A stretch of DNA of 64,000 nucleotides from contig NZ_BRZC01000007.1 in NCBI RefSeq assembly GCF_030268005.1, positions 790,694-854,693 of the forward strand, in the 5' to 3' direction. The position numbers were made by a program, and so were the translations under genes. A model generated the notes under the pieces. It was not told the origin of the DNA. It saw only the letters and a list, made by a program, of their open reading frames with translations, and did no database searches. Shown piece by piece: positions 10,789 through 12,629 of the stretch; within the stretch, counting starts at the first letter, position 1; each line of letters starts with the position of its first letter. The stretch comes from Microbacterium arabinogalactanolyticum (lineage in GTDB: Bacteria; Actinomycetota; Actinomycetes; Actinomycetales; Microbacteriaceae).

Positions 10789-10822
10789 GAGACCCCCGCC
10801 GAATCGGGTCGGCGGGGGTCTC
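10789..10822 (-). terminator. Terminator of the MerR-PP2C gene
   Basis: A perfect 12-bp stem (GAGACCCCCGCC with GGCGGGGGTCTC) and a ten-base loop lie 24 bases beyond the stop codon of the MerR-PP2C gene. Confidence 0.8.
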
Positions 10823-10846: not shown

Positions 10847-11866
10847 TCAGCCGTGGATGTCGACCACGACGATCGTGTCGTTGTCCGGCTCGCCGGCATC
10901 CGCCACCGCACGCTCGACGGCGGTGACCGCCGCGTCCGGATCCTCCGCGTCCAGCAGGGCGGCGAAGTCGGATGCGGAGAACAGGGCGTGCACGCCGTCG
11001 GTGGTCAGCACGAGGCGATCGCCGCGCTGCACCGTGACGCCCACCACATCAGGCGCGGAGGGCAGCCCCGCCGCGAGCGCCCGATTGAGCACGGCGCGAC
11101 GCGGGTGCAGCCGCGCCTCCTCCTCGGAGAGCCGGCCGTCCTCGACGAGCACCGAGACCTCGCTGTGGTCGGTGGTCAGCTGACGCAGCACGCCGTCGCG
11201 CCGCAGCCAGGCACGCGAGTCGCCGAGGTGCGCGATGGTCGCGACGTCACCCTTCAGCGCGATGGCGGTGAACGTGCTGCCGCGCTCCTCGTCGCCGACG
11301 CCGTCGGCGCACTCGGCGGCGAGCTCGTCCCAGCGCTCGGCGCCGACAGGCTCGGGCTCGGCCGCCAGCAGGCGGACGAGGTCGCCGGCCACCGAGGGTG
11401 CGCCGCCGAAGCCGTCGGCGACCGCCCACAGCGCATCGCCGATGTGCACGGCATCCAGCTGGTCGTCGCGGGCGCCCTGCCTGATGGCGTGCGCCACCAG
11501 GGTCCGGGGTGTTCGTGTCGTCGTCATGATGCTCTCCTTCGATCGTAGGTCTGCGACGAGGGCGGACACCTGGACCCGGCGCGAGCGCACGTCGGCCTCG
11601 GCCTGCCGCCAGAACGAGGTGACCTCGGCCGCGACGGCGACCGGTGGCAGCTCGAGGGCGGTTCGGATGCGCTCCAGCGGCATGCCCACGCGGCGCAGGG
11701 CCGCGATCAGGCGTGCCGGTTCGAGCTGGTCCGGTGCGTAGTACCGGTATCCGGTGCGCTCATCCACCTCGGCCGGGCGCAGCAGGTCCAGGTCGTCGTA
11801 GATGCGCAGCGCCTTGGGGCTGAGCCCGGCGGCACGGGCGAAGTCGCCGATCGACATGAGCTGCAT
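10847..11866 (-). CDS. MerR-type DNA-binding domain fused to a PP2C-type protein phosphatase
   Basis: This is a 339-residue two-domain protein. Residues 1-75 form a MerR winged helix (SIGDFARAAGLSPKALRIYDDLDLL, then TGYRYY), followed by a helical dimerisation segment to about 112. Residues from about 114 are a PP2C/Ser-Thr phosphatase with GDALWAVADGFGG, HLGDSRAWL and a late DNDTIVVV motif holding the metal-binding aspartates. PP2C proteins dephosphorylate Ser/Thr kinase substrates; MerR proteins bind spaced promoters. An internal ATG at 11527 has AAGGAG six bases upstream, so a stand-alone phosphatase may also be made. The start is uncertain: ATG at 11875 or 11866 (GAGAGGG upstream); I took 11866. 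It is monocistronic and no kinase gene is nearby. The domains are clear; the targets are unknown. Confidence 0.85.
   Translation of the reverse strand: MQLMSIGDFARAAGLSPKALRIYDDLDLLRPAEVDERTGYRYYAPDQLEPARLIAALRRVGMPLERIRTALELPPVAVAAEVTSFWRQAEADVRSRRVQVSALVADLRSKESIMTTTRTPRTLVAHAIRQGARDDQLDAVHIGDALWAVADGFGGAPSVAGDLVRLLAAEPEPVGAERWDELAAECADGVGDEERGSTFTAIALKGDVATIAHLGDSRAWLRRDGVLRQLTTDHSEVSVLVEDGRLSEEEARLHPRRAVLNRALAAGLPSAPDVVGVTVQRGDRLVLTTDGVHALFSASDFAALLDAEDPDAAVTAVERAVADAGEPDNDTIVVVDIHG
11528..11541 (-). promoter_or_regulatory. Internal ribosome-binding site inside the MerR-PP2C gene
   Basis: AAGGAG followed by AGCATC precedes an in-frame ATG at 11527, exactly at the junction between the MerR part and the phosphatase part. 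The fit to consensus and spacing is better than at the gene's own start, which suggests independent translation of the phosphatase domain. Confidence 0.55.
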
Positions 11867-11942
11867 GCGGTCCATCATCCCTCTCATCGCATCGGCGACT
11901 CTCGCCGACCGGCTCAGGTTCCGCCCTGCCCCCGGGGGAAGG

Positions 11943-12620
11943 TCAAACCCGCCTGCGGGCCGGGCGCGCGGGCCTCCAGCGCGCCAGGAAGGTCGCAACG
12001 GCATCGCCGGCGATGGTGGCCAGCTGCTCCTCCGAGAATCGGGACGCACCGGCGGTCAGCGTGATCCGGTCCAGCGGCGCCCCCAGCACGAGCCAGGTGA
12101 ACTGCTGCGCCGCCGTTCCGGCATCTCCGGTCTCGAGGAGTCCTCGACGAGCGAGGTCCGCGAAGACCTCCGCGAGGAGTGCCTCATTGCGCTCCCAGCT
12201 GCGCTCCACGTACTCCGCGGCGATCTCCGGGAACCGTTCGGCTTCCGCGATGACGAGGCTGCGCATCTGCACGACGGGCGGACTCAGGACGGCAGCGTGC
12301 AGGATGCCGGCGAGGTCGAGAAGCGCCTGCTCGACGTCTTCGGTGCTCCGCAGCCGGTCGAGATGCGGACGCATCGCGTTCTGACCGCGTTCGACCCAGT
12401 CCGTGACGACGGCCGCGAAGAGCTCCTGCTTCGAGGCATGGCTGCGGTACAGCGTCTGCTTGGAGATCCTCGCGGCGGCGGCGATCGCGTCCATGGTGGT
12501 GGCGGCGTAGCCTTCGCGCAGCAGAATGTCACGCGCGACGGACAGGAGATCCGTGCCCTCGAGTCCGCCGGGGCGCCCCCGGCGACGCGGTCGGACTGCT
12601 TGTTCGGATGCCATGGCCAT
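11943..12620 (-). CDS. TetR-family transcriptional repressor
   Basis: This is a 225-residue TetR regulator. The N-terminal helix-turn-helix reads ATTMDAIAAAARISKQTLYR (about 42-61), followed by a helical ligand-binding domain with the TetR_C pattern of the AefR-like group. The start at 12620 is favoured because TACTAT lies six bases upstream, which fits a leaderless transcript; the ATG at 12614 is an alternative. The gene is divergent from a small membrane-protein gene, and the 68-base spacer carries two identical GTACT-N4-AGTAC palindromes. One of them overlaps the regulator's own -10, so it probably represses itself and its neighbour. The ligand is unknown. Confidence 0.9.
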   Translation of the reverse strand: MAMASEQAVRPRRRGRPGGLEGTDLLSVARDILLREGYAATTMDAIAAAARISKQTLYRSHASKQELFAAVVTDWVERGQNAMRPHLDRLRSTEDVEQALLDLAGILHAAVLSPPVVQMRSLVIAEAERFPEIAAEYVERSWERNEALLAEVFADLARRGLLETGDAGTAAQQFTWLVLGAPLDRITLTAGASRFSEEQLATIAGDAVATFLARWRPARPARRRV

Positions 12621-12629
12621 TCTCAAATA

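Follow-up and report, generated by a model that had tools for sequence, protein, structure and literature searches.

A MerR–PP2C fusion gene of Microbacterium with a conserved internal start codon and a MerR-type promoter: a probable autoregulated two-product gene built like tipA

Does a single gene of Microbacterium arabinogalactanolyticum encode both a MerR-type regulator and a free Ser/Thr phosphatase, and does it control its own promoter? The question is raised by a locus in a stretch of 64,000 nucleotides (hereafter the window), for which an original prediction, made from the letters of the DNA, had proposed a MerR domain running in frame into a PP2C domain. The proposed fusion was borne out: translation of the window gave one open reading frame (ORF) of 339 amino acids and a stop codon, running from 11866 to 10847, that matches both Pfam MerR_1 and Pfam PP2C_2 (Table 1). 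The ORF lies at the predicted position, 10847–11866, and on the minus strand, which the prediction had left unstated; the plus strand across the same stretch is interrupted by an in-frame stop. We put a probability of about 0.7 on the reading that the gene regulates itself and, like tipA, is built for two products, which would be a MerR–PP2C regulator and, in addition, a free PP2C phosphatase.

Table 1. Coordinates of the features of the fusion locus (positions in the window)
Feature	Position	Strand	Remarks
MerR–PP2C fusion ORF	10847..11866	-	339 aa plus stop; full-length homologues in 10/366 genus genomes, own included
MerR winged-helix DNA-binding domain, residues 4–72	11651..11857	-	Pfam MerR_1, E 4.5e-15
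Long helix, residues 75–113	11528..11644	-	Predicted model; presumed MerR dimerisation coiled coil
Internal Shine-Dalgarno AAGGAG	11534..11539	-	Anti-SD duplex −9.3 kcal/mol
Internal start codon ATG (Met114)	11525..11527	-	ATG 43, GTG 7, neither 1 among 51 fusions
Predicted short product, free PP2C phosphatase, 226 aa	10847..11527	-	Aspartates kept; nearest solved sequence relative MsPP 2jfr, E 5e-27
MerR-type promoter: TTGACC (11946–11941), 19-bp spacer, GAACCT (11921–11916)	11916..11946	-	Layout recurs in other fusions
Imperfect dyad CCTTCCCCCGGGGGCAGG inside the spacer, likely operator (candidate)	11925..11942	.	Pattern's only exact genome match
Inverted repeat, 14-bp arms	10789..10822	.	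24 nt past stop codon; possible terminator without T run; direct reading

The N-terminal part scored 56 bits against the MerR_1 cut-off of 21.6, as a MerR winged helix-turn-helix should. PP2C_2 covers residues 192–305 (E 7.9e-07), and the NCBIfam model Stp1_PP2C_phos matched residues 195–335 (E 3e-30) with 105.5 bits, a score under its curated cut-off of 230. In a predicted structure model, built from a 7-row alignment and having a mean pLDDT of 64.6, the wing is followed by a long helix (residues 75–113), as is characteristic of the MerR family, then by a low-confidence stretch (103–137) and the PP2C fold. Met114 comes immediately after the last residue of the helix, inside the low-confidence stretch and before the strands of the PP2C fold. 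Trp86, within the helix, is invariant in 34/34 fusions, and a 96% identical gene is present in Microbacterium sp. 69-10. A consensus scan of the locus, which demands a T run, reported no terminator.

A ribosome-binding site six bases ahead of an in-frame ATG had been predicted exactly at the domain border, and it is there: on the minus strand, the Shine-Dalgarno (SD) sequence AAGGAG at 11539–11534 is separated by six bases from the ATG at 11527–11525. In a scan of 34 window ORFs, called mechanically, 20 of the 263 internal in-frame ATGs were preceded by an anti-SD pairing of −6.5 kcal/mol or stronger, and 4 of the 263, the junction site among them, reached −9.3 kcal/mol or stronger. Within one genome, then, such an SD/ATG pair is unusual but neither unique nor convincing by itself, and an SD-like tract within a gene may go unused by ribosomes. 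On the sequence comparisons described below, its significance comes from conservation.

We also considered the hairpin CCUUC-GAUC-GAAGG, which would hide the SD, as a regulatory element, and dropped it. No more than 10% of synonymous controls had an SD as inaccessible as the real one for 7/10 Microbacterium genes and 3/4 genes of the genus that we call g184, and this held for 1/15 and 0/3 genes of two other genera, g96 and g115; the SD of the window's own gene was not unusually inaccessible against its synonymous controls. In several Microbacterium relatives the internal SD shares bases with the 14-nt palindrome CCTTCGATCGAAGG, of which the window carries a version with one mismatch at 11536–11549.

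Relatives of the fusion were collected at several taxonomic levels. At a threshold of E ≤ 1e-31, full-length fusions were found in 10 of 366 Microbacterium genomes. An order-level sample of 347 genomes added a further 20 in which the fusion was complete or partial, belonging to the genera g96, g115 and g123, and a phylum-level sample of 396 genomes contributed four fusions in g184 besides the fusion of the window itself. Because one g184 fusion has matches of about 80% identity in named Streptomyces plasmids, g184 very probably stands for Streptomyces or a genus close to it. Among 299 genomes sampled at family level and searched at E ≤ 1e-38 there were three matches, namely the window's own fusion and two PP2C-only genes of another genus; a weaker-scoring distant fusion would escape at that threshold. 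The first set comprised 34 fusions, including one cut at a contig end (G702) and two whose frames look shifted (L098 in G886 and L112 in G1103), the shifts being either assembly errors or decay. A later set of 17 was gathered once the junction pattern had been noticed: six named fusions (three from Streptomyces and one each from Embleya, Nonomuraea and Nocardioides), taken from 10 records of a plasmid collection with at least 80% of the query covered at one place, and the eleven new ones of the 16 matches found when 246 genomes were sampled at class level. The total is 51 fusions, 10 from Microbacterium and the remainder from other actinobacteria; these rows are related, so that counts over them are not counts of independent events, and they span several families and orders.

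Across the 51 fusions, a start codon occupies the junction in 50, mostly behind an SD-like tract, while the sequence and length of the linker vary. Within Microbacterium, 10/10 fusions carry the junction ATG, preceded at a distance of six bases by AGGAG or GGAG, over junction residues that read SKES[IT], AKESI, RQEIE or -EEIE, one gene being a codon short there. The variants seen across all fusions (SKES[IT], RQEIE, -EEIE, LPSEDI, RKGTA, RKDST, SWKDPA and NEVPT) likewise keep a purine-rich tract. In the first set 32/34 fusions have an ATG no more than five codons from the aligned column, and of the two g123 genomes one has GTG at the aligned codon (G824) and the other has no start codon (G759). 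In the later set a start codon lay within three codons of that column in 17/17 (3 ATG and 3 GTG among the named fusions, 8 ATG and 3 GTG among the class-level ones), and two of the class-level GTG genes also carry an ATG six codons further on.

Pairing energies in the first set set the junction apart from other methionine codons: as printed by the scan, 31 of the 32 junction ATGs had an anti-SD energy of −6.5 or stronger, against 2/76 off-junction Met codons in the 34 fusion genes. Tracts as strong as that of the junction precede 0.5% to 15.7% of all codons in the same genes, and it is the placement before a start codon that is rare, not the SD-like tract alone. Energies in the later set ranged from −5.0 to −10.3, with 10/17 at −6.5 or stronger and 7/17 weaker (−5.0 to −6.0); these weaker tracts lower our confidence in the two-product reading slightly. 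Among the other Met codons of the eleven class-level genes, 1/25 reached −6.5 and 8/25 reached −5.0; because of the latter, energy does not single out the weaker sites, for which position speaks instead.

Could the purine-rich codons and the methionine have been kept for the sake of the protein, the likeness to an SD being incidental? The tract largely encodes K, E, R, D and G, residues suited to the charged end of a helix or a linker. Residues and length, however, differ from clade to clade, the Met is replaced by Val, encoded as GTG, in seven cases, strong SDs are rare before the off-junction Mets of the 34 fusion genes (the 2/76 above), and uncommon codons are concentrated at the junction. 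CTT fills one junction column in 8/10 Microbacterium genes (17/385 Leu codons overall), CGA fills the adjacent column in 7/10 (29/344 Arg codons overall), and AGG appears at the junction in 3/4 g184 genes (5/172 Arg codons) and in 3/3 g115 genes (5/99 overall). In Microbacterium, permuting the synonymous codons round the junction showed a mildly significant conservation among 8 close genes (p 0.029; 0.040 with 7 genes) and none that was significant once all 10 were included (p 0.20). We regard this explanation by protein needs as very unlikely.

A second explanation takes the full-length fusion as the sole product and the internal SD and ATG as the relic of a once-separate PP2C gene, and an SD with a start codon right at a domain border is indeed the remnant that a gene fusion would be expected to leave. 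A relic should decay, yet the start codon stands in all but one of the 51 genes in spite of linker turnover and a divergence to about 40% protein identity between the fusions of different clades, and the seven codons that are not ATG are GTG, itself a start codon. We consider the relic improbable. The original prediction had offered a deliberate two-product gene as one of its two alternatives, to be given up if the full-length protein were the single product and the internal site both silent and not conserved; the site was found to be conserved, which supports the two-product gene well. We infer that ribosomes start at the internal codon.

The other alternative in the original prediction, a recent loss of a stop codon that joined two genes in this genome, was rejected. 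Fusions of this kind occur in several families and orders. When their 34 PP2C domains were placed in one tree with 82 others (116 in all), the fusion set made up one side of a branch and called for one change. The branch had support of 95/62 and was present in 95% of 200 bootstrap trees, and the tree carries a long-branch warning from the tool. One old origin of the fusion is compatible with this tree, and judging from distribution and tree together the fusion is old and widespread. Relatives had also been expected, under the idea of a recent joining, to show two separate genes side by side. We searched the surroundings of 17 Microbacterium PP2C loci, hand-picked for short open frames from a longer list of PP2C loci in the genus (3 kb fetched for 16 and 2.4 kb for one), and tblastn at E 0.01 found no MerR-like gene beside any of the 17.

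The phosphatase part has kept its active-site positions. D138, D151 and D290 are Asp in 34/34 fusions and D328 in 33/34, in an alignment that includes the frameshifted rows, and all four are kept in 11/11 class-level fusions; from PP2C structures, we take these four aspartates to be metal ligands. The PP2C phosphatase is probably active. With the architecture and the kept positions, the coupling of promoter binding to Ser/Thr dephosphorylation, which the original prediction had suggested, is plausible.

In the simpler arrangement of a conventional MerR regulator, the PP2C domain would be a ligand-binding sensor and nothing else, and an efflux pump or another gene would be the true output. The two g123 genomes look like a drug-responsive MerR operon of this kind: in both, a gene for an MFS transporter (Pfam MFS_3, MFS_1; L158:5532–6776 and L159:2876–4318) overlaps the stop codon of the fusion (ATGA in one and GTGA in the other). 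The internal ATG is missing from these same two genomes, with no start in G759 and GTG in G824, and this coincidence with the MFS overlap hints that in g123, as represented by two genomes, the output may have changed from a free phosphatase to a pump. For the fusions at large, a sensor-only PP2C domain is unlikely. Metal-binding positions would be needless for a mere sensor, yet they are kept. Nor did a comparison of flanking DNA, in which a rough GC rule was used to call ORFs, turn up a conserved operon partner common to the clades; it took in about 4–5 kb per side for 11 of the 24 non-Microbacterium fusions and up to 9 kb per side for the 10 Microbacterium ones. The flank matches between clades were the fusion gene itself and one other match of 34% (G061 with G1103).

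Upstream of the fusion gene lies a promoter of the MerR type, with a candidate operator in its spacer (Table 1). By our own reading of 32 fusions, the layout consists of a TTGAC-like box, a spacer of 18–19 bp containing a dyad of a C-run and a G-run, and nAnnnT; the spacer measures 19 bp in 29/32 readable promoters and 18 bp in 3/32, in keeping with the dyad-bearing spacer of 19–20 bp expected of a MerR target promoter. The layout was present in 32/34 fusions of the first set (the other 2 are without usable upstream sequence), in 6/6 named and in 10/11 class-level fusions, that is, in 48 of 49 usable upstream regions. The −35-like box reads TTGCG in G061, TCGAC in G940 and TTTACC in two class-level fusions. 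No MerR-type promoter was found for one class-level fusion (L166), for which the start used is probably too early. Against a 21-base consensus, which was drawn from the scored sequences themselves, 29/32 promoters scored at least 15, as did 8/2000 shuffled upstream stretches, and the promoters of G931, G1135 and G1103 scored 12 or 13. A consensus scan, whose spacer limit is 18, reported one sigma-70-like site on the other strand and did not pick out the MerR-type site. The stop codon of a TetR-type regulator gene (TetR_N, TetR_C_7; 11943–12626, minus strand) overlaps the fusion gene's −35 box.

The operator pattern TTGACCTTNCCCCNGGGG has a single exact match in the window genome, at the fusion's own promoter, together with two sites at 2 mismatches and 1 control match. 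When up to 1 mismatch was allowed in 9 relatives, 7/9 showed a single match, always just upstream of the fusion gene, and 2/9 showed no match; there was 1 control match. Because the close match sits at the gene's own promoter, the fusion protein would appear to be a dedicated autoregulator, one that may bind and activate that promoter.

The closest precedent for such a gene, by analogy of layout, is tipA. The gene tipA is reported to make two in-frame products and to be autoregulated, and for albA two products are assumed by the authors (PMC7762955, PMC6078987, PMC2893106). TipA of Streptomyces lividans (TipAL/TipAS) and AlbA consist, like the fusion, of a MerR domain, a linking coiled coil and a C-terminal domain, which is the antibiotic-binding TipAS domain in TipA and a PP2C phosphatase in the fusion. 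Pfam TipAS (PF07739) had no match in the fusion protein at E up to 0.1, and because that domain is absent the fusion resembles TipA in its layout and is not a member of the TipA class; the only PF07739 match of the window genome lies on another contig. As to a second in-frame product and autoregulation, the other two features of the TipA class, what the fusions show is conserved internal start signals and, at the gene's own promoter, a conserved putative MerR-type operator.

In the same junction scan of eight TipA-like genes, an SD preceded the junction Met in 6/8. Four of these are the best TipA homologues that the g184 genomes contain; in them the SD had an energy of −9.3 and stood before the Met of MGI[NDS]LTPEE, which we take to be the TipAS start. 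At the Met on the border of helix and TipAS, the energy was −7.8 kcal/mol in the TipA-like gene of the window genome (L146, C1:60276–60650) and −12.2 in that of G128 (L145); two more distant TipA-like genes (L147 and L148) showed no such SD at the junction. Besides the fusion, then, the window genome seems to contain a second MerR gene laid out for two products.

The MerR–PP2C architecture itself has been recorded before. A 2025 survey of bacterial PP2C proteins names MerR among the domains in the legend of its Fig 5 (PMC12088040). In the text of that survey available to us the term MerR occurs once, and neither an internal start nor a promoter is mentioned for the architecture. A search of open-licence PMC articles found, among the matches listed, none on an internal start of a MerR–PP2C fusion.

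Solved structures divide the fusion protein in two. PstP, MsPP and Stp1 are the nearest by sequence and fold (2jfr, 1txo, 2cm1, 2pk0), 2jfr being a mycobacterial PP2C phosphatase (E 5e-27); these matches span the PP2C part alone, and none of the chains has a listed MerR domain. With the predicted model as query, Foldseek ranked PstP and its relatives best, and BmrR appeared from rank 29. The nearest solved MerR relatives are of the BmrR type (1exi, E 5.3e-14, and others; residues 4–104). Where the fusion has PP2C, the effector domain of BmrR is GyrI-like (PMC7762955).

Seen in the sequences themselves are the domains, the kept catalytic positions, the conserved internal start with its SD-like tract and the conserved MerR-type promoter. 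Under the autoregulated two-product reading, the MerR part would dimerise and, at its own promoter, bind the dyad that the 19-bp spacer contains, and the PP2C part would be an active metal-dependent phosphatase serving as a sensor or output domain. The full-length dimer would sit on its own promoter, and a signal, presumably passed through the PP2C domain, would switch it. Ribosomes entering at the internal SD and ATG would make free PP2C, so that on activation of the promoter the soluble phosphatase would rise along with the regulator.

A further step, which we put forward tentatively and hold to have less than an even chance, is that this one gene forms a phosphorylation feedback circuit, in which a phospho-signal would be read by the PP2C domain, the MerR part would activate its own promoter, and free phosphatase, made in flood by internal initiation, would erase the signal. 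The signal that is read might be a phosphoprotein, the protein's own phosphorylated MerR domain or the metal state. If such a circuit exists, the fusion would resemble TipA in being self-induced, but as an enzyme and not as a drug sponge. Under the two-product reading, a phosphatase governing its own transcription by way of a fused MerR domain would link promoter control directly to Ser/Thr dephosphorylation, with the free enzyme coming from the same mRNA. The tipA design, a regulator and an effector made from one gene by internal initiation, would then be a broader design of the MerR family that extends beyond antibiotic binding, and relatives of the fusion exist in Streptomyces.
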